From Sphingomonas sp. A2-49 (GTDB lineage: Bacteria > Pseudomonadota > Alphaproteobacteria > Sphingomonadales > Sphingomonadaceae): a DNA stretch of 64,000 bases. Below the pieces are notes generated by a model. It saw only the letters and a list, made by a program, of their open reading frames with translations. It was not told the DNA's origin and did no database searches. The position numbers and the translations under genes are program-made. Location of the stretch: assembly GCF_025548555.1 (NCBI RefSeq), contig NZ_JAJLPA010000006.1:1-64000 (forward strand). Reading direction: 5' to 3'. This document shows positions 16,419-59,430 of the stretch, one piece after another; within the stretch, counting starts at the first letter, position 1; each line of letters opens with the position of its first letter.

Positions 16419-16460
16419 CCCGCTTGACGCGGCCCCACCCGATCGGGATGCTTGGGGCGT

Positions 16461-16655
16461 CAAGGTTCTCCGGCACGGGTTCGCCCGTGCCGGAGCTAAG
16501 ACGGGAAGCCGGTGCGCCCCCTTATCGGGCAAGGCCGGCGCTGCCCCCGCAACTGTAAGCGGCGAGCGGCGGTCATGACGTGTCACTGGCGGGGCGACCC
16601 GCCGGGAAGGCCAGACCGTTCGCACCGACCCGCGAGCCAGGAGACCTGCCTTCGA
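16461..16655 (+). promoter_or_regulatory. Cobalamin (B12) riboswitch
   Basis: The leader begins with a GC-rich hairpin (cggcacgggttcgcccgtgc region, 16471-16493). The conserved cobalamin-riboswitch blocks follow: ggaagccggtgc at 16504-16515, the core gctgcccccgcaactgtaag at 16540-16559, and the B12 box gagccaggagacctgcc at 16634-16650. A candidate expression platform is the ccccg/cgggg hairpin at 16758-16775, just before the metE start. B12 binding would be expected to shut off metE, because the B12-dependent methionine synthase MetH can then replace it. Confidence 0.93.
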
Positions 16656-16787
16656 CGCCATACGTCCACCGGCGGGGTGCCCGGTCTGGCCGCTTGCCGA
16701 ACCGTGGCCGGAGCACTGCTTCGTTCGCGTGGCCGGTGCGTGCGTCCGTCCGGTCTGCCCCGCCCTTCATCGGGGTTGCATGAAGAC

Positions 16788-45501: not shown

Positions 45502-45577
45502 GCCCGGGTAGCTCAGTTGGTAGAGCATGCGACTGAAAATCGCAGTGTCGGCGGTTCGAATCCGTCCCCGGGCACCA
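45502..45577 (+). tRNA. tRNA-Phe (anticodon GAA)
   Basis: A full cloverleaf is readable: acceptor gcccggg/cccgggc, D-arm agctcagttggtagagc, anticodon stem-loop with ctgaaaa (anticodon GAA), T-arm cggttcgaatccg and an encoded CCA at 45575-45577. Bases 45531-45577 are repeated exactly at 59384-59430, because the integrative element used this 3' half as its attachment site. The gene remains intact at the left end. Confidence 0.97.
45531..45577. repeat. attL: 47-bp direct repeat in tRNA-Phe
   Basis: The repeat starts at the anticodon stem (gactgaaaatcgcagtg) and ends with ccgggcacca. It is identical to 59384-59430; the bases on either side differ. It marks the left junction of the integrative element. 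Confidence 0.93.
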
Positions 45578-45583
45578 CCTTTT

Positions 45584-45597
45584 CAATGACTTAGCGG
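45584..45597. repeat. Left copy of a 14-bp terminal inverted repeat
   Basis: The sequence caatgacttagcgg lies 6 bases inside attL. Its exact reverse complement, ccgctaagtcattg, lies at 59328-59341, 42 bases inside attR. It may be an integrase or accessory-factor binding site. Confidence 0.75.
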
Positions 45598-45623
45598 ACA
45601 TAATGCCGCTGCCCCACGGGCCG

Positions 45624-45661: not shown

Positions 45662-46816
45662 CTAGCCTGACGATGGCATCGCGATGCCCAGATGATTGAT
45701 CGCGCTATCGATATGCACCCCATCTACGTGGGCATATCGCAGCACCATCGATAACGTTTTATGGCCGCTAACCCGCTGAATGGTTGGCAAGTCGATACCC
45801 GCTTTCACTAATCTGGTTATCGCTGTGTGACGCATTACGTGGGGCGTGACCTTCATCGGATCCAAACCAGCGCGCACTACCGAGCGTTGGAATGCTTTTC
45901 GAAATGTATGCCGGTAGCCTGTTGTGCTTCCTGTCCCGCCCGCGAAAATATACCCCCCTAAAACCCCTCTACGTCGCAGTTCATCATCTAGCACCGCAGC
46001 TAGTTGAGGCGGGATTGGCTGATCGCGCTCTCCTGCTTTAGCTTCTGGAATAAACAAGCGCCTGCGATTCGCGTCGTAGTGCTCCCACCGGAGGCGTCGC
46101 GCTTCTCCATGCCGCATTGACGTTTGGAGGCATATCAATACGAAAAGCCAAACGTCACCGTCCTGGTCTTCCCTAGCCGCCTTCAATAAAGCGGTGCATT
46201 CGCCATCAGACAGCGCAACGATCCGCCCAGCGCCTTCACGAAGTCGCTCGATAGTAGGGACCTTATCTTTAGCGATTACTCCCCACCGAGCGAGCTTGCG
46301 CAGCATGTGAGATAGGGTGGCCAACTCCCGGTTGATCGTGCCAGCCTTGGCACCGCCGCGTCGCCGAAGCTGTACAAACTCGCGTACGCTCGACTCGCTT
46401 ACCGAATCGATACGGAACGATCCGAAGAACGGTTGCAAACGCATTTCGATATGCCGGGATTTGCGCTCAATCCCCTTACCGCCTTCTGCGGATAACCTTC
46501 CGATGTAGGCCGCCGCACCGGATACGAAGGACGGAGCCATTTTACGCCCCGTAGGTAGGTCGAGGCGATCCTCGCGCGCCCGGGTACGAAGCGTTTCGAT
46601 CAATCGCTCCGCCTGCTCGCGGGTAACCCCCTCGCTCTCCCTTCCCACGGTGCGGTGTATGCGCTGCCCGTCCACCATTGCAGCCACCCGGTAGACGAGG
46701 TCGCCGCTCGCGGTACGCTCTACCGTTATTCCGCCCTCGGTCAGCCTTTGGCCGGCGGTCAGAGCGCTAATATTTCTACGACTTAATTTTGGGAAAGAAC
46801 GCGCCATAAGATACAC
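45662..46816 (-). CDS. int: Tyrosine-type site-specific integrase
   Basis: 384 residues. The N-terminal arm/SAM-like domain precedes a catalytic domain carrying all active residues: R235 in TSMRHGEARRL, K260 in PEAKAGERD, H326 and R329 in HVMRHTAIT, H352 in SGHKTLS and the nucleophile Y361 in LRYAHVD. It would catalyse integration at, and excision from, the tRNA-Phe 3' end 85 bases away. A second possible start (M4) would shorten it by three residues. Base composition is lower in GC than the chromosomal genes. Confidence 0.93.
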   Translation of the reverse strand: MYLMARSFPKLSRRNISALTAGQRLTEGGITVERTASGDLVYRVAAMVDGQRIHRTVGRESEGVTREQAERLIETLRTRAREDRLDLPTGRKMAPSFVSGAAAYIGRLSAEGGKGIERKSRHIEMRLQPFFGSFRIDSVSESSVREFVQLRRRGGAKAGTINRELATLSHMLRKLARWGVIAKDKVPTIERLREGAGRIVALSDGECTALLKAAREDQDGDVWLFVLICLQTSMRHGEARRLRWEHYDANRRRLFIPEAKAGERDQPIPPQLAAVLDDELRRRGVLGGYIFAGGTGSTTGYRHTFRKAFQRSVVRAGLDPMKVTPHVMRHTAITRLVKAGIDLPTIQRVSGHKTLSMVLRYAHVDGVHIDSAINHLGIAMPSSG

Positions 46817-46984: not shown

Positions 46985-46998
46985 TTGACTGGAGTCAA
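46985..46998. promoter_or_regulatory. Dyad ttgact-gg-agtcaa at the excisionase start
   Basis: A perfect 6-bp-arm palindrome covers the start codon of the HTH gene and lies in the int-xis divergent region (46817-46984 is otherwise AT-rich). Autorepression by the HTH protein is a plausible use. Confidence 0.4.
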
Positions 46999-47182
46999 CA
47001 CTTGCGCGACGCCCGACGGGCGTCTAAGTCGCGCCGATGCTGCGCGCTACCTGGGGCTTAGCCCTGCCACCTTAGCCAATTGGAAGCTAAAAGGCTTTGG
47101 CCCCCGACCCGTTAAGGTTGCCGGTCGCTGCTTTTACTGGCTTGCTGACCTCGACGCCTTTATTCGTCAGGGGGTACTGTAA
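46985..47182 (+). CDS. Excisionase-like helix-turn-helix protein
   Basis: 65 residues from a TTG start. LSRADAARYLGLSPATLANWKLKGFGPRPVKVAGRCFYW is a MerR/AlpA-type winged HTH as found in excisionases and small element regulators, ending with LADLDAFIRQGVL. The TTG overlaps a perfect dyad (ttgact-gg-agtcaa, 46985-46998) that may be an operator. It is divergent from the integrase gene across 168 bases, and its stop directly abuts the next start. A role as directionality factor or regulator is inferred from position. Confidence 0.75.
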   Translation: MTGVNTCATPDGRLSRADAARYLGLSPATLANWKLKGFGPRPVKVAGRCFYWLADLDAFIRQGVL

Positions 47183-47515
47183 ATGAGTTTACTAAGGCGA
47201 AAGCCGAGCAGAACTTGGGTATCCGATATCTTCGACTCCTCCGTGGTAGCCAAAAACGGCGGACCGGTTCGTAGGAGTCTGGCCAGCATCAAAAAGAACT
47301 CGTCACCCGCTCGCGTTATCAAAGAGGCGCAAGCGCGAAGCTGGCTTATCTATGAGGTAGGGCCGTACTGGTTGTTTCATGCGGGCTACCTGCGGCACGG
47401 CTCGGTCATAAGGAAAGCCCCCTCGTTTCCGCGTGCCCGCAGAAGGCGCAGAAAGCGCCGCAAGGTTGGTGCAGCGCCGTCTGCGGCGACCGGAGCCACC
47501 CTGCCAGGGCTGTAG
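47183..47515 (+). CDS. Hypothetical protein, basic C-terminus (110 aa)
   Basis: 110 residues starting with the base after the excisionase stop. The middle (KEAQARSWLIYEVGPYWLFHAGYL) is well formed and aromatic; residues ~80-95 are almost all Arg/Lys (PRARRRRRKRRKV). No known family is recognised. The basic tail suggests nucleic-acid binding. It is probably cotranscribed with the excisionase-like gene. Confidence 0.5.
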   Translation: MSLLRRKPSRTWVSDIFDSSVVAKNGGPVRRSLASIKKNSSPARVIKEAQARSWLIYEVGPYWLFHAGYLRHGSVIRKAPSFPRARRRRRKRRKVGAAPSAATGATLPGL

Positions 47516-47892
47516 GTTCGCGCACTCGATTTACGAGCTTCGTAAATACTAAGGAGTGCGGGGGCTCGAACCCCTCACTAGACATCGCAAGGATGATCTG
47601 TGAGGATCGTATTTATCCCCCGCATCCGTAGCTAACAAGCCGGTCTAACTATTAGATGAAAAGCCCCCACCAAAAGGACATTAGTATCGTCACCACTAAT
47701 CAAGTTAAGTATCGTCGGTCATGCGTGCATATTAACACGATACTAAACTAATCTTTCTTAACATACCATAAAGTTTACTTAACATGTGGCAACATAAAAG
47801 CGTGTGAATTGTAGATCACTAGCTGTTGCCCACCCCGATTTTCCTGTCATTTAGCCTGGCTCCTGCGGCATTCCGCCGCATTTGGAGCTAAA
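47516..47892. other. AT-rich intergenic region with nested hairpins
   Basis: 377 bases without a supported gene, before the polymerase-like gene. At 47521-47560 the arms cgcactc and gagtgcg enclose an inner perfect hairpin tttacga-gct-tcgtaaa (47530-47546). A ggggctcgaacccc hairpin follows. From 47690 to 47800 the DNA is very AT-rich with repeated cttaaca/acttaaca words. Hairpins, AT-rich DNA and repeats beside a putative replicase gene could make a replication origin; this is inference. Confidence 0.4.
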
Positions 47893-49221
47893 ATGAAAAC
47901 CGCAACTACCCTACCCGCCACCTCACTTTCGCTTGTGGCGCCGTCTGCCAATAGTCCGTTTGATCGGGATGCGCCTACCGCCCGCATGTACCTTAGCTCG
48001 CGGACTAAAAGCGCCGTGGCGGTATCCACCATCACAGGCCTCGCTAACGACATCACTGACTTAAGGGGGAATCGGAAGACGGCTAGCGCCGAATACCACT
48101 TGGCCCTCGGAGCCATGGTGGCCGAGCTTGCTCGCGCTGCCTCGCATAGCCCACCGCTCGGATGCTATCGGCCGCTTCGCGCCAGCGATTTTCCTAGCGG
48201 AGGTATCGGCTACAGGCCCTTCAATCGCGCCCTCAACGATATGATCCGCCACGGGTACGTTACCACCGGGGGAGGTGAATCTGCTTGGAGGGAGCGCCTA
48301 GGATCGGTCACGCGCATCTACGTCACCCCTAAGCTCACCGATTACCTATCGGTGCATGGGATCACCGTTGCCGACAGGGAAAAGCACTTCCAATACAAGC
48401 CTGCTATGGACGACATTCCGCCTGTCCAGCTTCGAGCGACTTTAGATAAGGATAGGGGCAAGCCTCGTCGCGGTAAGAAACTCAAAGTCGACACGGCGAA
48501 TCCCGTGGTCGCTGGCCACGTAAATCAAATTAGGCGGATTAATGAGTATGTGCATCGCCAAACAGTGATCGGACCCAAGCAAGATAGGCTGGATATCGCG
48601 CTATACCGGGGATTCAATCTTGGCGACGCGCCGGGCCACAACTATACAAAAGGTGGTAGAGTTTACGCTGCCTATCAAAGCTTCGAAAGAGCTGATCGGG
48701 ATCATATAACGATAAATGGCCTATCAACTATCGAGGTCGATATCTCTGCCTGCTTTCTTACCATCGTTCATTACCTCCTAAAGCGCCCCTTCTCTGGCAA
48801 GAACGATCCTTATGCCGGCCCGTCTATTCACCGGGACATCGTAAAAGCGTGGGTTAACCTCACCATCGGCTACGGACAGTATCATACCCGCTGGCCGCAA
48901 GAGGCAATCGATAGGTTAGAAGAAAAGGGTCACAACAATGTTAGAAAGACACATCCCATAGCAAGCGTCAAAGAAGAGGTCCTAACCAATATCCCAATTG
49001 TAGGAGAATGGGTAGAGAGCATCTACACATGGGCGGACCTATTTTTTATCGAAAGTCAGATCGTCATCCGTACGATCGAACGCCTTGCTTTCGAGTATAA
49101 CGTTCCTTGCTTGCCGATTCATGACGCGGTCCGCGTACCCGTCAAACAGGTCGTGTTAGCTAAAGAGGTTTTAAGAGAGTCTTTCTCGCATTACACGGGC
49201 TTAATGCCCATCGTAGCCTAA
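47893..49221 (+). CDS. Diverged family-A-polymerase-like protein (candidate replicase)
   Basis: 442 residues. No standard domain is obvious, but three spaced motifs match the palm/fingers of family A polymerases. A motif-A-like TIEVDISACFLTIVHYLL has D283. A motif-B-like HRDIVKAWVNLTIGYGQ has R314, K318, N322 and Y327-G328, although K to Y is one residue longer than in Pol I. A motif-C-like LPIHDAV has H410-D411, preceded by a helix FFIESQIVIRTIERLA. The order and overall spacing fit. The N-terminal ~230 residues are unassigned and contain a basic stretch (KDRGKPRRGKKLK). It has a good start after ggagctaaa. In an element lacking other replication genes it is the best replicase candidate. I recall comparable unannotated proteins in alphaproteobacterial islands, but this is inference. 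Confidence 0.55.
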   Translation: MKTATTLPATSLSLVAPSANSPFDRDAPTARMYLSSRTKSAVAVSTITGLANDITDLRGNRKTASAEYHLALGAMVAELARAASHSPPLGCYRPLRASDFPSGGIGYRPFNRALNDMIRHGYVTTGGGESAWRERLGSVTRIYVTPKLTDYLSVHGITVADREKHFQYKPAMDDIPPVQLRATLDKDRGKPRRGKKLKVDTANPVVAGHVNQIRRINEYVHRQTVIGPKQDRLDIALYRGFNLGDAPGHNYTKGGRVYAAYQSFERADRDHITINGLSTIEVDISACFLTIVHYLLKRPFSGKNDPYAGPSIHRDIVKAWVNLTIGYGQYHTRWPQEAIDRLEEKGHNNVRKTHPIASVKEEVLTNIPIVGEWVESIYTWADLFFIESQIVIRTIERLAFEYNVPCLPIHDAVRVPVKQVVLAKEVLRESFSHYTGLMPIVA

Positions 49222-49722
49222 TATATTATCTAGAAAAAAAATATTATTAAAGGATTATTTCTTTTTTTTTCCTATATTTCCTTTCTTATCTCTCTCTTCT
49301 CCCCCCTCCTCCTTCTCTCCTCATACGGGTAGAGGTTAGTAAAGGAAAGGGGTGAAGGGGGAAATAACGTAACGTCGTCTAGAGAATGGTAGGAGCGAAG
49401 AAACGTAAGCTTGCCACGCGGTAAGATTGCCTAAAACATTTCGCGCTTCGGCGATAACAAGCGCCTCGAATGCGCACGATAACCGCGCATATCGGCTAAA
49501 TCGCCCCAGGATGGCCGCAGGATGGCGAAGTGAGCGTACGGGCTACGTGGGTAGCTTAATTAGGCAAAGGCCCTCTCCACGCGGCTTATAGGCATCATCG
49601 CGGGTTGTTACCGACGCCCCCATACGTCAATAGTGCAATGGCCCCACCCCACATACCGGCGCAGCAACCATCAGTCCGTTCACCGAGGACCAGACCGCAG
49701 CATGTAGCCCGCCGACACTGAT
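49222..49722. other. Intergenic region with a long polypyrimidine tract
   Basis: 501 bases with no gene that I can support. It starts with an A/T-rich stretch, then from 49258 to 49321 runs almost purely C/T with a few A, including ctctctcttctccc-type blocks. A purine-rich stretch follows at 49327-49365 (ggtagaggttagtaaaggaa and on). Such homopurine-homopyrimidine DNA can form triplexes. The rest (49366-49722) is ordinary, with only short chance frames. Confidence 0.45.
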
Positions 49723-51170: not shown

Positions 51171-51283
51171 CGTCGCTGTAGGGCTGCTCTGGACGTCTTT
51201 ACGGCCTCCGCTTTCGGCGCGAGCATCAGGCGCTTAACGTAGTCGGCATCGATCACGGCGGGCAATGCAAACGGCTTTGTCAT
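51167..51283 (-). CDS. Very short ORF between SRAP and the 71-aa ORF (38 aa)
   Basis: 38 residues, starting MTKPFALPAVIDADYVKRLM and ending RAALQRR. Both ends are ATGA overlaps: its start overlaps the SRAP stop at 51280-51283 and its stop overlaps the next start at 51167-51170. The chance of two such junctions by accident is low, so translation by coupling is plausible. No homologue recalled. Confidence 0.45.
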   Translation of the reverse strand: MTKPFALPAVIDADYVKRLMLAPKAEAVKTSRAALQRR

Positions 51284-51876
51284 AGGACCGCCATAAGCTG
51301 CGATGGGTAAGGCGTCGCCAACGTCAAAGCGTCCTCAACCGGTGCCTGTAGCCACCTGTCGTAATCCTCTTCATGCAAGACGACAGGCATGGCCTTCGGA
51401 TGGATTGCGCCGACCAAGTGGGTTGAAGGGTCGTCCTCATAGCCGGTGGTGAGGAAGGCATAGGCGGGAGCATCCCCTGTAGGTCGCCACACTCCTGCGA
51501 ATGCAAAAATCGGACGCGATGGCACAGAGAACCAATAGGGCCTCTTCTTGCCCGTAGTTGGATCGGGATCGACGCTCCACTCTTGAAAGCTGGTTACGGG
51601 TACAATGCAACGCCGATCGGGATTGGCTAGTGCCGAGCGCCAAAACGGGCTCACGTAGTTGCGGACGTTGACGACGGGGTTGCGGACGCCTTGGGGCGGG
51701 GGAAAGCCCCACCGCATAGCCTGTAGCTGCCTGTCCGCCGCCGAACCTGTGACGACAAGGCCCGACCGACCCGGCGACACATAATCCTTCGCTAGGGCGA
51801 CTCCTAGCGCCTCCACGGCAACGAAGGCAGCCGCAATGTCATGGGGCGAGGCCTTCAGATTGTAGAGGTTGCACAT
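51280..51876 (-). CDS. SOS response-associated peptidase (SRAP/HMCES-YedK family)
   Basis: 198 residues. SRAP proteins form a covalent bond through Cys2 with abasic sites in single-stranded DNA. The catalytic MCNLYNL start (Cys2), the NVRNYVSPFWRSAL block, the acidic FQEW segment and AIHPKAMPVVLHEEDY with the active-site His are all present. The gene lies in the integrative element, upstream of two overlapping short ORFs. Phages and islands often carry SRAP genes, perhaps to protect single-stranded intermediates, which fits a replicating element. Confidence 0.92.
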   Translation of the reverse strand: MCNLYNLKASPHDIAAAFVAVEALGVALAKDYVSPGRSGLVVTGSAADRQLQAMRWGFPPPQGVRNPVVNVRNYVSPFWRSALANPDRRCIVPVTSFQEWSVDPDPTTGKKRPYWFSVPSRPIFAFAGVWRPTGDAPAYAFLTTGYEDDPSTHLVGAIHPKAMPVVLHEEDYDRWLQAPVEDALTLATPYPSQLMAVL

Positions 51877-51911: not shown

Positions 51912-51970
51912 TGACCGCTTCCGCCCAAAAAGCGGACCTTCCGCTTTCGCCCAGTAGCGGACATTCAGCG
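51912..51970. repeat. Palindromic repeat copy (agcggac/gtccgct family)
   Basis: A run of gaccgcttccgccc, aaagcggaccttccgctttc and gcccagtagcggacattcag gives several overlapping hairpins. The same words (ccgctttcgcccag-agcggacatt) recur at 53775-53812 and at 52208-52216. They form a small family of intergenic palindromes inside the element, one of which the IS interrupts. Confidence 0.7.
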
Positions 51971-52196: not shown

Positions 52197-52219
52197 GTTG
52201 CCAACGTCCGCTTTCCACC

Positions 52220-53769
52220 GAGGCTGTGTGAAAACGTGCTGATGTGGTAGAGTTCTGGCGCTGATGGAGGTGCTGGGATGAGCCGTTTCATCGAGGGGAG
52301 CGACCGGCGGGAAAGGCTGCTGCTGCCGGACTGCATTGACGATTATGTAGGCGCGGACAGCCCGGTTCGGGTGGTCGACATGTTCGTGGACGAGTTGGAC
52401 TTGAGCGAGCTGGGCTTTGGCGCAGCAGCCGCGACGGGGCGACCGGGTTATCATCCGGCGACCATGCTCAAGCTCTACGTCTACGGTTACCTCAACCAGG
52501 TGCATTCGAGCCGGCGGCTGGAGCGCGAGGCGGGTCGCAACGTCGAATGCATGTGGCTCACAGGCAAGCTCGCGCCTGACTTCAAAACCATCGCCGACTT
52601 CCGCCGCGATCATGGTGCAGCGATACAGGCGGCATGCCGGCGCTTTGTCCTGGTCTGCCGCAACCTGGGTCTCATCGCGGGCGGTACGGTGGCGGTGGAT
52701 GGCAGTCGGCTGCGGGCGGTGAATGCGCGCGACCGGAACTTCACGCCTGTCACGATCCGGCGCCGGATGGAACAGGTCGATGCCAGCATCCAGCGTTATC
52801 TCGGCATGCTCGACACCGCCGACCGGCAGGAGGGCGAGGCGTCCGGGTTGCGCACCGCGCGGCTGACGACGCGGCTGGATGCCTTGCGCCGGCAGATGCG
52901 CGACCTGGAAGCCATGGAGCAGGCAGTCGTGGCCGCGCCCGACCGGCAGATCTCGCTGACCGACCCGGACGCGCGCGCAATGGCATCGGCGGGAGGTGGC
53001 ACAGGCCTTGTCGGCTACAACCTCCAGGCAGCGGTCGACGCGGACACTCACATCGTCGTGGCGCACGAAGTGATCAATCTTGGTCACGACCGCACGTCGC
53101 TGGCGAGCATGGGGCAGCAGGCGCGCGACGCGACCGGCGTCGATACGCTCACCGTACTGGCCGATCGCGGGTACTTCTCGGGCCCGGAGGTGCTGGCCTG
53201 CGAGAAGGCCAGCGTCGTGGCGATCTGCCCCAAGCCACTGACCTCGGGCGCCAAGGGAAAGGGGCGCTTCGGCAAGCAGGATTTCGTCTACCAACCCGAT
53301 ACCGATACCTATCGCTGCCCTGCCGGCGAAACCCTGACCAGGCGCTTCTCCAGTCTGGAACATGGGCTGACGCTCCATGGCTATGCGACGCCCGCCTGTC
53401 GCTTCCGCTGCGCTGTAAAGGCGAACTGCACCGCCGGCATCGAACGGCGTATCAAGAGATGGGAGCATGAAGAGGTGGTCGAGGCCATGCAGGCCCGGCT
53501 CGACCGCTGGCCCGATGCCATGCGCGTGCGACGACGAACGGTGGAACACGTTTTCGGCACTCTGAAAGACTGGATGGGCCGAAGCCACTTCAAGACACGA
53601 AGGCTCGGGAACGTCGCGACCGAGGCCAGCCTCCACATCCTCGCTTACAACATCAAGCGCGCCATCGCCCTCCTCGGCGTGCCAAGGCTCATCGCAGCAA
53701 TGCAGGCCTGAACGGCCAACCCGCGCGCATCGACTCAACCAATGCGCACAGCCGTTTCCACACAGCCTC
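52220..53769 (+). mobile_element. IS1182-family insertion sequence (1550 bp)
   Basis: Terminal inverted repeats gaggctgtgtgaaaacg (52220-52236) and cgtttccacacagcctc (53753-53769) match at 16 of 17 positions. A 4-bp duplication, cacc, flanks it at 52216-52219 and 53770-53773. One transposase gene fills the element. Rejoining the flanks restores gtccgctttccaccagaagcggac, so the insertion is in the loop of a palindrome. Confidence 0.92.
52278..53711 (+). CDS. tnp: IS1182-family transposase
   Basis: 477 residues. The N-terminal RPGYHPATMLKLYVYGYLNQVHSSRRLEREA and LTGKLAPDFKTIADFRRDHG are typical of IS1182 transposases. The DDE catalytic residues are expected in VAVDGSRL, in LADRGYFSG, and in the C-terminal RRRTVEHVFGTLK region with the E. 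The start has ggagg 12 bases upstream. The frame is intact, so the IS may still be active. Confidence 0.92.
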   Translation: MSRFIEGSDRRERLLLPDCIDDYVGADSPVRVVDMFVDELDLSELGFGAAAATGRPGYHPATMLKLYVYGYLNQVHSSRRLEREAGRNVECMWLTGKLAPDFKTIADFRRDHGAAIQAACRRFVLVCRNLGLIAGGTVAVDGSRLRAVNARDRNFTPVTIRRRMEQVDASIQRYLGMLDTADRQEGEASGLRTARLTTRLDALRRQMRDLEAMEQAVVAAPDRQISLTDPDARAMASAGGGTGLVGYNLQAAVDADTHIVVAHEVINLGHDRTSLASMGQQARDATGVDTLTVLADRGYFSGPEVLACEKASVVAICPKPLTSGAKGKGRFGKQDFVYQPDTDTYRCPAGETLTRRFSSLEHGLTLHGYATPACRFRCAVKANCTAGIERRIKRWEHEEVVEAMQARLDRWPDAMRVRRRTVEHVFGTLKDWMGRSHFKTRRLGNVATEASLHILAYNIKRAIALLGVPRLIAAMQA

Positions 53770-53773
53770 CACC

Positions 53774-53812
53774 AGAAGCGGACATTCCGCTTTCGCCCAG
53801 AAGCGGACATTA
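53774..53812. repeat. Palindromic repeat copy, right of the IS
   Basis: The sequence agaagcggacattccgcttt, then cgcccagaagcggacatt, continues the palindrome split by the IS and repeats the family seen at 51912-51970. It overlaps the 3' end of the next minus-strand gene by a few bases. Confidence 0.7.
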
Positions 53813-56229: not shown

Positions 56230-56323
56230 GTTTCCCTCTTTGACCCATCACGTAGGCGCACGGCGATCCGACTGATGTTGATAGCTCGCTAACGGGGTGT
56301 ACCCGCCAATAGCGAACCTTTTG

Positions 56324-57156: not shown

Positions 57157-57506
57157 AACGGCTCCGAGTCGCTCATAAGGTAGGGGTATTATATGAGCTA
57201 GGCGCTGATATGCGGAGTCATATCTTCTGAGCGGCGCGTTGGAACGTCTTTAGGGGTGGCTCATGACTTACAACTTCCGAGCAGAGCAACGGCGCGGTCA
57301 GCAATCCGGCCGGGGTGAGGACTGGCATTGGTAACGCGCTACGCGGGAGAACGAACCGCGTCCGACAAGGCGGGCCGGTTAGGCGTGTCATAATCGTGGG
57401 GGCCGGGGAGCGTGAGGTACGGGGGTAACGCTCGCTTATTGTTGTCTGATTGCCCTGTTGCATGCCACTATAAACTCCAGGTCGTAGACGGATCGTGGAG
57501 TGCTCG
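57157..57506. promoter_or_regulatory. Divergent intergenic region upstream of the recombinase
   Basis: 350 bases without a supported gene between the divergent recombinase and DUF4145 genes. A dyad gatatg-cggagt-catatc lies at 57207-57224, a possible recombinase binding (res) site. The rest is unremarkable; open frames across it have no recognisable protein. Confidence 0.35.
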
Positions 57507-58319
57507 ATGGGAAACAAGTTGCCGCTTGCCGAGAGCTGGGTCTGCCCTCACTGCAATTTTGCGCAAATGAAGTCTGCGTCTAAATCCGCTTCCAAAAACA
57601 TTCATATTGATATAGACGGACTAGCGGACGGCAACGTATTGCTTGGCTACAATGCTCTTGGCTGCGTAAACCCAAAATGTATGAAGCTAACGATATCGGC
57701 GTTTCTCTTGCCGGCAGCTCAAATGAGTTCCGTGGATGGGCCGAAATTCTATTATCGTGGCGGCCCTTTTATCGCAAACGTTAGGTTTCTACCCCGTGGG
57801 ACAAGCAAGCCGCAGCCGTCATACATACCTCGACCCCTTGTGATCGATTATGAAGAGGCCTGTGCTATCAGGGACCTAAGTCCAAAAGCGTCTGCGACTC
57901 TCGTTCGAAGGTGCTTACAGGGTATGATCCGCGATTTCTGCGACATCAAGAGAGGTACACTAGCTCAAGAAATCAAGGCTCTGCGCGAAGCGGTGGAAGG
58001 TGGATTGGGTCCAAAGGGCGTCGATATAGATACCGTCGAGGCGATCGATCATGTCCGATCTATCGGTAATATCGGGGCACATATGGAGAAAGACATCAAT
58101 ATAATCGTTGATGTTGACGCAGATGAAGCTCAAATGCTTATCGATCTAGTCGAGGTTCTGTTTGTCGAGTGGTACGTTGCACGGGAACGCCGAAACGAAA
58201 GCCTTAAGGCAATCAAGGCGCTTAGCTTGCGCAAAGCGGATGATCGCAATCCTCAGCCGGTGTTAACGCCCCCGGATGCCACCGGGTTACTGACCGTGTT
58301 GGATGATAAATCTGCCTAG
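57507..58319 (+). CDS. DUF4145 domain protein
   Basis: 270 residues. An N-terminal zinc-ribbon-like part (WVCPHCNFAQ and ALGCVNPKCMKLTISAF) precedes the DUF4145 helical core (IDYEEACAIRDLSPKASATLVRRCLQGMI, VDIDTVEAIDHVRSIGNIGAHME, VDADEAQMLIDLVEVLFVEWYV). DUF4145 belongs to the broad HEPN-like group often found near restriction systems. The ATG at 57507 is preferred over an upstream GTG for the ggag ribosome binding site 6 bases before it. Beside an HNH endonuclease at the element end, a defence role is plausible. Confidence 0.8.
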   Translation: MGNKLPLAESWVCPHCNFAQMKSASKSASKNIHIDIDGLADGNVLLGYNALGCVNPKCMKLTISAFLLPAAQMSSVDGPKFYYRGGPFIANVRFLPRGTSKPQPSYIPRPLVIDYEEACAIRDLSPKASATLVRRCLQGMIRDFCDIKRGTLAQEIKALREAVEGGLGPKGVDIDTVEAIDHVRSIGNIGAHMEKDINIIVDVDADEAQMLIDLVEVLFVEWYVARERRNESLKAIKALSLRKADDRNPQPVLTPPDATGLLTVLDDKSA

Positions 58320-58426: not shown

Positions 58427-59179
58427 CTAATCGTAGTGTTCGCGCTCACTCGCCAAGTATTTCTGCTGAAGCGCGGGCAACGAAAGGGCATTACGCTGCC
58501 TATGGGCCATGCGATGGCAATTAGCACATAGCAGGGCGAGGTCTGCGAGCTTCGTCAATGTGCCGGGTTTTAGGGTGTGGACCGGCTTAGTGTGGTGTAC
58601 TTCGATATAGCCGGCACCTAGCTCACCATATGCTCGTTCGAAGTCGAATCCGCAAACCTCGCAAGCCAACAACCCCGCCGCTGCCGCTGCCTTACGCTTC
58701 TGGCGTACAAGCTTCGGATCGCGCTCATAGCGTTTGTGGAGACGCATGATGACGCCGCCCTCTTCACCTTCGTAAGGCTCAACCGGCGGTAGCTTTGCTA
58801 GGGCCGCCTCGTCTACGCCTATAACGGCCTGCCTTATCGCCTCTGCGTCTGTAGCTAGATCAGCTAGCCGACCGTAGTATTCGGCCCACAGCACGCGTTC
58901 TAGGCGGTTTCCACGCTGCATACCGACCTTGCCTTGGTCGAGGTACACCGGGTCGGACGAACGGAAGTTCATGACCTTTAGGTACACGCCATTGCGGTTC
59001 CGAAGCGTGTCGCTGCCGCCGCCGCCGTTAAGCCGGTGCATCTTGTTTAGGACTGCGGACAGCGCCTCTATCGCAACGTCATCTTTCGCGGTCGGGTTAC
59101 CCCCTGTCTTTACGTATAGGTCGAGGGCTAGGGTTAGCTCGTCTCTGGACCAGATCGGGTTGCGCGGGGGCTTAGCCAT
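58427..59179 (-). CDS. HNH endonuclease (McrA-like)
   Basis: 250 residues. The N-terminal half (RNPIWSRDELTLALDLYV; NRNGVYLKVMNFRSSDP) matches the DNA-recognition part of HNH enzymes related to type IV restriction McrA proteins. The C-terminal HNH domain has ACEVCGFDFERAYG, IEVHHTKPV with the catalytic histidines, and LLCANCHRMAH, so the zinc Cys pairs are complete. It may cleave modified DNA. It is the last gene before attR and converges with the DUF4145 gene. Confidence 0.88.
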   Translation of the reverse strand: MAKPPRNPIWSRDELTLALDLYVKTGGNPTAKDDVAIEALSAVLNKMHRLNGGGGSDTLRNRNGVYLKVMNFRSSDPVYLDQGKVGMQRGNRLERVLWAEYYGRLADLATDAEAIRQAVIGVDEAALAKLPPVEPYEGEEGGVIMRLHKRYERDPKLVRQKRKAAAAAGLLACEVCGFDFERAYGELGAGYIEVHHTKPVHTLKPGTLTKLADLALLCANCHRMAHRQRNALSLPALQQKYLASEREHYD

Positions 59180-59266: not shown

Positions 59267-59327
59267 CTGATCCGGGAAAACGCGGGAAGATGGGTGATCG
59301 GTAGGGACGTTCGGTACGGCCTTTAGG

Positions 59328-59341
59328 CCGCTAAGTCATTG
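59328..59341. repeat. Right copy of the 14-bp terminal inverted repeat
   Basis: The sequence ccgctaagtcattg is the exact reverse complement of 45584-45597. It lies 42 bases inside attR. Confidence 0.75.
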
Positions 59342-59383
59342 ATAAGGGAAGGATTGGGAACCTTCGGGATGAAGGTTCTCATA

Positions 59384-59430
59384 GACTGAAAATCGCAGTG
59401 TCGGCGGTTCGAATCCGTCCCCGGGCACCA
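59384..59430. repeat. attR: second copy of the 47-bp tRNA-Phe end
   Basis: An exact copy of 45531-45577, beginning gactgaaaatcgcagtg and ending in ccgggcacca. It lacks the 5' half of the tRNA and so is not a functional tRNA gene. It marks the right end of the integrative element; the chromosome resumes with GC-rich DNA. Confidence 0.93.

Follow-up and report, generated by a model that had tools for sequence, protein, structure and literature searches.

Location and Gene Content of the Element

The window analysed here comprises 64,000 nucleotides from Sphingomonas sp. A2-49 (contig NZ_JAJLPA010000006.1, positions 1 to 64,000 of the forward strand). It contains an integrative element of ~13.9 kb that is inserted in a tRNA-Phe gene and carries a gene for a protein with the predicted palm-fingers fold of family A polymerases. 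The features that delimit and characterize the element are as follows:

45502..45577, + strand: tRNA-Phe (GAA) gene, the insertion site
45531..45577, strand not assigned: 47-bp attachment (att) repeat at the tRNA end, 100% identical to 59384-59430
59384..59430, strand not assigned: att repeat at the far end of the ~13.9-kb element, a perfect copy of the 3' part of the tRNA-Phe gene
45662..46816, - strand: tyrosine recombinase (integrase), 384 amino acids (aa), PF00589, E 2.1e-26
46985..47182, + strand: excisionase-like helix-turn-helix (HTH) protein, 65 aa; HTH_17 below cut-off, PHROG 66 excisionase, E 8e-8
47893..49221, + strand: TV-Pol/divPolA2-type polymerase gene, a complete open reading frame (ORF) with an ATG start, 442 aa
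56578..57156, - strand: serine resolvase of the gamma-delta type, 192 aa, PF00239, E 7.5e-29

Counted from the tRNA gene, the order is tyrosine recombinase (on the minus strand), HTH protein, polymerase, cargo, serine resolvase, DUF4145 protein, and HNH protein. The GC content of 1-kb bins lying wholly inside the island is ~52-65%, compared with ~70% in most of the preceding 40 kb. The initial annotation had assigned the gene to a tRNA-Phe element without other replication genes. The perfect 47-bp repeat confirms the first part of this statement, and comparison of the 16 element ORFs with Pfam, which revealed no helicase, primase, or Rep family, agrees with the second.

Predicted Fold of the Polymerase Domain

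Homologues of the window protein were arranged in three alignments, comprising ten close relatives (A1), 32 members (A2), and 52 full-length homologues (A3). The latter was built from 36 ORFs minus four (two duplicates, two short) and 38 ORFs minus 18 (10 duplicates, eight fragments); short fragments, duplicates, and six weak loci (L040-L045) are omitted from it. The mean column identity of A3 is 17%.

The AlphaFold2 model calculated from the 52-row alignment has a predicted local distance difference test score (pLDDT) of 90.7 and a predicted template modelling score (pTM) of 0.87. Comparison of this model with the PDB by Foldseek gave 25 matches at E ≤0.001, all of which are family A DNA polymerases, with Taq Pol I as the best one (2e-5); T7 RNA polymerase was matched at 2.8e-3. 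The corresponding TM-scores are low (~0.3), with root mean square deviations of 10-15 Å across the whole alignment. Alignments made with VIA-align covered approximately residues 170-442 and yielded the following values: Z 14.6, 3.6 Å, 227 aligned residues (apPol); Z 14.6, 3.3 Å, 247 residues (yeast mitochondrial RNA polymerase); and Z 14.4, 3.5 Å, 244 residues (T7 RNA polymerase). The part of the gene concerned is:

48397..49218, + strand: polymerase (palm-fingers) domain, residues ~169-442; VIA ranges 169/173-442 against apPol, Taq, mitochondrial RNA polymerase, and T7 RNA polymerase

In the model, the Arg of a GGR hairpin, R256, is located in strand E254-258, and the thumb region is represented by a single long helix (204-221) in front of this hairpin. 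Neither an exonuclease domain nor a canonical thumb is seen in the model. When the fold was compared with those of predicted viral proteins, the top match was the 'DNA polymerase' of Rheinheimera phage Barba31A (E 1.4e-19), together with other proteins of 400-450 aa; the replication protein of Zamilon virophage was matched at E 4.1e-4. A minimal family A polymerase had been suspected at this locus from short motifs, and the palm/fingers fold of the family A/T7 RNA polymerase class is what structure prediction returned. Judged by the model, the window protein is a real polymerase-fold protein.

Sequence databases contain very little information on this protein. Pfam yielded no family at E ≤1 for the 442-aa protein and no polymerase family for any of the 32 members of A2, in which six unrelated or HTH families each had a match to a single member, HTH_3 being the best (1.9e-4). 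NCBIfam likewise contained no family at E ≤0.001 for the 52 homologues; with the window protein there was one chance match (E 0.09). The same was true for sequence searches of the PDB, where the best hit of the window protein was a chance match to a coronavirus spike (E 0.24), and the A2 profile retrieved a gas vesicle protein (E 0.17), followed by the regulator TrmB at 1.0. Only PHROGs gave a clear assignment, to phrog_4756, which was matched by the window protein at E 1.7e-19 and by all 32 members of A2. Its label reads 'unknown function', and with regard to Pfam, NCBIfam, and PHROGs the gene had rightly been called unannotated.

Conserved Residues

The following codons correspond to the putative active-site motifs (counts refer to the 52 rows of A3):

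48658..48660, + strand: R256, beta-hairpin Arg (GGR), 52/52, aligned to TGR of Pol I
48739..48741, + strand: D283, catalytic Asp of motif A, 52/52, opposite the Asp in DYSQIE of Pol I
48832..48846, + strand: R314-K318, fingers RxxxK, Arg in 50/52 and Lys in 52/52
49120..49125, + strand: H410-D411, motif C, His in 50/52 and Asp in 52/52, aligned to Pol I VHDEL

Six residues are invariant in A3, namely R239, G255, R256, D283, K318, and D411. A further ten are conserved in at least 90% of the rows: N217, F241, R269, E281 (50/52), D305 (47/52), Y307 (51/52), R314, L383, L407, and H410. R256 of the GGR hairpin, R239, Y307, E281, and D305 thus extend the set of motifs recognized in the initial annotation. 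The latter had listed motif A-, B-, and C-like segments, all of which occur at the residues given, motif A within TIEVDISACFL; of these, D283, R314, K318, and H410-D411 are conserved. The remainder of its motif B is not: N322 is Asn in 14/52, Y327 is Tyr in 3/52, and G328 is Gly in 8/52 homologues, and motif B is therefore reduced to RxxxK. Three other positions deserve mention. The sugar-gate position, five residues after D283 in motif A, carries His in 36 and Phe in 5 of the 52 rows; Asn, Gly, or Ser is found eight residues after K318 in 47/52; and Ser follows the HD of motif C in 40/52.

The same residues were inspected in 80 further loci outside A3, a few of which possibly come from the same genomes as some A3 rows. 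Asp was found at D283 in 78 of 79 aligned rows (one Tyr) and at D411 in 74 of 75 (one Gln), Lys at K318 in 77/77, and Arg at R256 in 80/80. Since the scan patterns used to retrieve these loci held the hairpin and motif A, it is K318 and D411 that are fairly tested by this set. The seven phage proteins likewise retain these positions (7/7 for each of D283, K318, and D411). The nine fragments and six weak loci left out of A3 gave 13 matches, with Asp in 9/9 at D283 and in 6/6 at D411 and Lys in 6/7 at K318 (Cys in L040); the remaining positions are gaps. Three of these weak loci (L040, L042, and L043) encode 455-aa proteins in three genomes of 1.4 Mb. Most of the match to them lies at profile positions 39-214, in the N-terminal region, and neither the Arg of the hairpin nor the Lys of the fingers is present in the alignment. 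These proteins may, from their sequences, be diverged or inactive relatives. In all 52 full-length homologues of A3, D283, K318, and D411 are retained. Taken with the predicted fold, this supports the identification as a polymerase, from which we infer catalytic activity.

Relation to Known Polymerases

Polymerases of the TV-Pol type were described from mobile elements by Iyer, Abhiman, and Aravind (2008; PMC2579912), who characterized them by a coiled coil in the thumb, an Arg in a hairpin, two Asp in the palm, and, in the fingers, an Asp together with RxxxK. The family studied here shares with them its occurrence as a minimal polymerase of mobile elements, the hairpin Arg (R256), the two palm Asp, and D305 plus RxxxK. 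Of the listed features, only the thumb is not clearly reproduced: the published one consists of two antiparallel helices, and a single thumb-like helix is modelled here. One subset of TV-Pols possesses an extra N-terminal domain and is encoded beside a gamma-delta resolvase, a lambda integrase, or a transposase (PMC2579912); the present element likewise contains an integrase and a serine resolvase. The D5-like helicase of another subset was not found among the 16 element ORFs compared with Pfam, and represents an alternative rather than universal context. The figure legend of the same paper names Paracoccus denitrificans and many Rhodobacterales, and relatives from Paracoccus, Sulfitobacter, and Roseovarius, genera of this legend, were obtained in our scan of GTDB genomes. 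The relative from Paracoccus denitrificans DSM 413 (L164) shares 97% identity with the scan query and is split over two overlapping reading frames. By comparison with the published description, the family very likely is TV-Pol.

A protein named in the 2008 paper, MAP_030 of phage Ma-LMM01, was also considered as a TV-Pol reference. It was the top match in that phage, at E 0.0019 with A3 and 0.029 with the 32-row profile; R239, G255, E281, Y307, and R314 are unmatched when it is aligned, and its motif C can be read as HDG or HNS. Because this similarity is only weak, MAP_030 was not taken as proof.

The second published group is divPolA2 of phages (Virol J 2024, PMC11348598). These proteins are described as having an active palm, no thumb like that of other DNA polymerases, no exonuclease, and an N-terminal domain with no detectable similarity; the choice between DNA and RNA polymerase is left open. 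Our seven-protein phage set included the published representative AUR84708 (L156) and a Barba18A protein (L155). Three further phage relatives (L102-L104) were assigned to phrog_4756 with E ≤3e-73. In a profile comparison by hhalign, A3 and the profile of the seven phage proteins were aligned across residues 66-436 (probability 100, E 1e-52), and the integrase and resolvase profiles used as controls reached 0.9 and 0.1. The A3 profile was also aligned with Pol I (probability 61, E 8e-5), with D283, H410-D411, and the Arg of the hairpin at corresponding positions and RxxxK of motif B out of register; the fingers assignment is therefore based on order, spacing, and the fold match. The match to T7 RNA polymerase, represented by a set of five sequences, was restricted to motif C (probability 28, E 6e-4). 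With the ten rows of A1, the phage match was kept (99.8, E 3e-29) and that to Pol I was lost (2.5; T7 RNA polymerase 0.2; integrase control 2.4). For this reason, the link to divPolA2 is firm by sequence, and that to Pol I is mainly structural.

The window protein and divPolA2 have in common PHROG 4756, a whole-length profile match, a palm without canonical thumb or exonuclease, and an N-terminal globular domain. They differ in their setting, as the published set occurs in phages that reportedly also encode a regular DNA polymerase, whereas the window gene is part of an integrative element. In a tree of 60 sequences, the seven phage rows formed one group (98/92), and the window protein belonged to a separate 17-row group of elements and genomes (100/100). 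Since the phage rows group apart, the window protein is best filed as a divPolA2 relative and not as phage divPolA2. AUR84708 and Barba have long branches and the root is arbitrary, for which reasons no direction of transfer is read from this tree. At the columns of F288, G326, and A412, AUR84708 has Glu, Tyr, and Glu, the residues present in Pol I, although its H410 column is Phe; as judged from these letters, it appears to form a link to Pol I.

Pol I itself shares the palm-fingers fold, and its hairpin Arg was aligned in register, as were motifs A and C. Instead of its Glu at motif A +5, His or Phe is present in 41/52 homologues; motif C is mostly HDS, not HDE; and the exonuclease domain and canonical thumb of Pol I are not seen. 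A biochemically studied enzyme, the TV-Pol of SCCmec named CcPol, is also encoded by an element. With its partner MP it performed primer extension and priming with deoxynucleoside triphosphates (dNTPs), and priming required both catalytic Asp; its authors were aware, in 2020, of no other biochemically characterized TV-Pol (PMC7581432). CcPol differs from the present case in that it depends on MP, a small partner protein, and is accompanied by a helicase, neither of which was recognized here. It is also described as being without the N-terminal domain of many TV-Pols (PMC10061031), which the window protein possesses. The initial proposal of a replicase type for integrative elements is plausible, but such a type is not new, given TV-Pol (PMC2579912) and divPolA2 (PMC11348598): the gene encodes a polymerase of an already described, poorly characterized kind.

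N-Terminal Domain

The region preceding the polymerase domain is:

47980..48357, + strand: N-terminal domain, residues ~30-155, probable winged helix; own AlphaFold2 model, VIA, and sub-threshold PDB profile matches

Residues 24-175, modelled separately with AlphaFold2, gave a pLDDT of 90.5 and an alpha/beta arrangement of elements in the order E-H-H-E-H-E-E-H. VIA returned 50 rows with Z 5.5-6.7. Of these, 23 were MarR, PadR, GntR-like, ArsR, Fur, Z-beta, and other DNA-binding proteins, and 27 were small ribosomal chains, presumably mostly eS10 and also eS19, which are winged-helix proteins. A profile of the domain matched 13 PDB chains at E 0.13-1.8, six of which (two PadR, two MarR, ORC2, and FadR) are winged-helix proteins, in contrast to others such as influenza HA2 and ExbD. 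Several results count against such an identity. Foldseek found no match to the domain at E ≤0.001 (best E ≥0.18), its rows included other folds such as O-methyltransferases and H-NOX, and every VIA Z lies below the tool's caution line of 8, so that the matches are individually weak. Because the VIA list is uniform and the order of elements is wing-like, we nevertheless consider the modelled domain a probable winged helix.

The N-terminal domain of the TV-Pol subset was predicted as all-helical in 2008 and is perhaps the same domain, modelled here as alpha/beta and winged-helix-like. A literature search for TV-Pol together with winged helix found co-mention of the terms only for another protein. 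The identity of this domain, published as all-helical or unrecognizable, is probably an addition of the present analysis.

Distribution and Related Elements

A search of the genome of strain A2-49 with the 442-aa protein gave a single match, the protein itself. In a single-sequence search, 21 of the 296 genomes from the order contained homologues, and a profile of the ten close relatives detected them in 31 of 397 genomes of the family; homologues assigned by phrog_4756 were present in 24 of 289 genomes of the class and in none of 14 control genomes (the own genome is counted in all three cases). A scan of GTDB genomes with a related subset as query revealed 289 relatives. The best 80 of these, which were retained, are mostly labelled alphaproteobacterial, with a few others, e.g., Cyclobacteriaceae, Comamonadaceae, and Gammaproteobacteria. 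No match was obtained with the window protein by tblastn against phages or with its short patterns in IMG/VR, and a short-pattern scan of GTDB genomes gave 20 matches with no relatives among them. A plasmid search yielded one record. In a Sphingomonas parapaucimobilis plasmid (L105), the same layout is accompanied by restriction-type cargo and the polymerase is labelled 'hypothetical protein'.

The gene neighbourhoods agree with an integrative element. An integrase was identified in 14 of 18 related neighbourhoods vs. 2 of 20 control stretches of 19 kb, a resolvase in 15 of 18 vs. 0 of 20, and a tRNA gene in 12 of 18 vs. 4 of 20. The control stretches were hand-picked at round-number positions in 13 of the 18 polymerase-bearing genomes, and a 61-aa integrase fragment in one neighbourhood (L088) was not counted. 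The hidden Markov models for integrase and resolvase were built iteratively from the same neighbourhoods and also run on the controls; the values 14/18 and 15/18 are favoured by this derivation. In an independent set, the GTDB-scan loci of at least 15 kb, an integrase was near the polymerase in 36/42.

Element ends were sought, as exact repeats of at least 18 nt, in the 12 neighbourhoods with a tRNA detected by ARAGORN. Repeats of tRNA genes of 27-57 bp were present in 7/12, an 18-bp repeat in one more (L096), and none in 4/12. Two sister elements reside in tRNA-Leu (L080) and tRNA-Tyr (L081). The window proteins share the following identities with those of L080 and L081, respectively: integrase, 48% and 45%; HTH protein, 48% and 56%; polymerase, 48% and 40%; and resolvase, 78% and 76%. 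In L086, polymerase and integrase lie between two tRNA-Arg copies 4.1 kb apart, which are possibly two tRNA genes and not strict att sites; otherwise only small ORFs without identification are present. This apparent 4.1-kb element has integrase and polymerase as its two recognizable genes. In the tRNA-Cys elements L082 (4352-5971) and L085 (3146-4633), the predicted integrase frame continues through the att repeat, well past the recombinase domain. The polymerase is a core gene of this type of tRNA-targeted integrative element.

Upstream Region

The DNA in front of the polymerase gene contains:

47516..47892, strand not assigned: non-coding stretch upstream of the polymerase gene, a possible origin, not conserved in relatives
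47681-47749: AGTATCGT present three times, twice in direct and once in inverted orientation, ~150-210 nt before the polymerase gene

This DNA had initially been described as AT-rich and hairpin-rich, which is true only mildly: the 380 nt upstream have 45% GC, compared with 52-65% in the 1-kb bins of the island, and the arms of the inverted repeats measure 10-13 nt. The occurrence of three AGTATCGT copies within 62 bp was equalled by one of 300 shuffles. Among 20 upstream regions compared, L083 and L095 contain a different 8-mer three times, widely spread (5/300 and 9/300 shuffles), and the other 17 contain none. Since 20 regions were tested and the others differ or are without repeats, the origin signal is treated as weak.

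Two further candidates were rejected. The small ORF at 47183-47515, considered as a partner similar to MP or to single-stranded-DNA-binding (SSB) proteins, had no tblastn match at E ≤1 in 19 related loci and no family in Pfam, PHROGs, or NCBIfam; conservation of this ORF as a gene is improbable. Near 47556-47640, visual inspection had suggested a tRNA-like T-arm, which had no Rfam match and was dropped.

Possible Role in Element Replication

By analogy with CcPol-MP, and because the polymerase is a constant gene of the element, we favour, with some reserve, the view that the protein is an element-encoded primase-polymerase starting replication of an excised circle. The tyrosine recombinase would cut out the element in circular form, assisted by the HTH protein, which probably acts as excisionase. 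Binding to element DNA, perhaps in the AT-rich region directly preceding the polymerase gene, would be the task of the probable winged-helix domain. The two metal ions would be held by D283 and D411 of the polymerase domain, which would synthesize either a primer of DNA or the first strand. Completion of replication would be left to host enzymes, among them a helicase, which the element seems to lack, and the serine resolvase would separate multimers. The bulky His or Phe at the sugar gate is compatible with selection of dNTPs, and Asn, Gly, or Ser at K+8 shows that the Tyr of T7 RNA polymerase is missing.

A number of observations speak against this proposal. No helicase or SSB-like partner was recognized beside the polymerase, while CcPol needed MP to prime. 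The resolvase is near the polymerase in only 8/42 loci of the independent set, the upstream AGTATCGT repeats are not conserved in relatives, and the sequence similarity to Pol I is weak, above all with the profile of the ten close relatives. Also, the Z values of the fold comparisons do not separate DNA from RNA polymerases, and motif C, with Ser after HD, is nearer to that of T7 RNA polymerase than to that of Pol I.

The two last points bear on the best of the alternatives, an RNA polymerase of the single-subunit type, whose products would be either transcripts of element genes or RNA primers and whose winged helix would bind a promoter. The aligned HDS of motif C, a GGRxY hairpin like that of T7 RNA polymerase, and weak matches to two PHROG RNA polymerase models, each by one of the 32 members (E 0.0058 and 0.015), are in line with such an enzyme. 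T7 RNA polymerase, however, has Tyr (Y639) at K+8, where Asn, Gly, or Ser predominates here, and Gly at the sugar-gate position, which is His or Phe in most homologues. The A3 profile is also nearer to Pol I than to the five T7 sequences. The question was left open by the divPolA2 authors (PMC11348598), and the characterized TV-Pol, CcPol, is reported to use dNTPs (PMC7581432). As the fold scores to RNA polymerases are equal to those to DNA polymerases, we retain this alternative as unlikely.

Another explanation is that the gene is itself cargo, i.e., an accessory polymerase for repair or anti-restriction, or a defence gene. The element does contain probable cargo, such as SOS-associated peptidase (SRAP), a PD-T7-4-like protein, and an HNH nuclease, and divPolA2 phages are reported to have a regular replicase in addition (PMC11348598). 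Yet the polymerase adjoins the integrase and HTH genes in both sister elements, where most other window genes are unmatched; it is one of two recognizable genes of the apparent 4.1-kb element; and PADLOC gave no match to it at E ≤0.01. A cargo function appears improbable.

That a palm-fold protein devoid of catalysis is kept as a DNA-binding or structural initiator is very improbable: palm relatives without catalytic residues are reported beside SSB-like proteins in elements of Bacillota (PMC10061031), and L040, L042, and L043 lack the aligned Arg and Lys, but the two Asp for metal binding and the Lys of RxxxK occur in every row of A3 and are nearly invariant in the 80 further loci.

The reading as a primase-polymerase can be compared with pipolins, which are likewise integrative elements with their own polymerase. 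The comparison concerns the way of working, since the pipolin enzyme is a family B polymerase (PolB). A wider and rather doubtful extension is that the protein would be a one-protein starter, combining a winged-helix origin binder with a family A-type primase-polymerase, that would initiate replication of an excised tRNA island without helicase or SSB of its own, and would form a counterpart of pipolins across Alphaproteobacteria, from which phage divPolA2 would have been captured once.

Other Features of the Island and the Window

The DUF4145 protein (57495-58319) has a PADLOC match to PD-T7-4 (E 1e-10), and the HNH protein (58427-59179) matches HNH/type-IV restriction models (E ~1e-7) and is 74% identical to that in the sister element L081. 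Both proteins represent probable defence cargo. The island further contains the SRAP gene (51280-51876; Pfam E 5.5e-25) and an insertion sequence (52203-53786) with a DDE transposase (52278-53711) and terminal 34-nt imperfect inverted repeats (76%). Repeats of the AGCGGACATT type are located at 51930 and 53776, with a more diverged copy at 56310. Just inside the element ends, near the att repeats, there are 31-nt inverted repeats (84%; 45578-45608 and 59317-59347), which are possible integrase arm sites. Directly 3' of the polymerase stop codon, at 49228-49345, a homopyrimidine-rich stretch is followed by a purine-rich one, possibly a terminator or structured DNA. A cobalamin riboswitch was detected at 16447-16667 (E 2.4e-24).

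Implications

This analysis joins PHROG 4756, the phage divPolA2 group of 2024, and the TV-Pols described from mobile elements in 2008, which the papers and databases considered here keep apart, and gives the N-terminal domain of these proteins a probable identity. The 4.1-kb element with integrase and polymerase, if real, would offer a clean system for testing self-replication by such enzymes. A Pfam or NCBIfam model of the family would name hundreds of genes, given the 289 relatives revealed in one GTDB scan.

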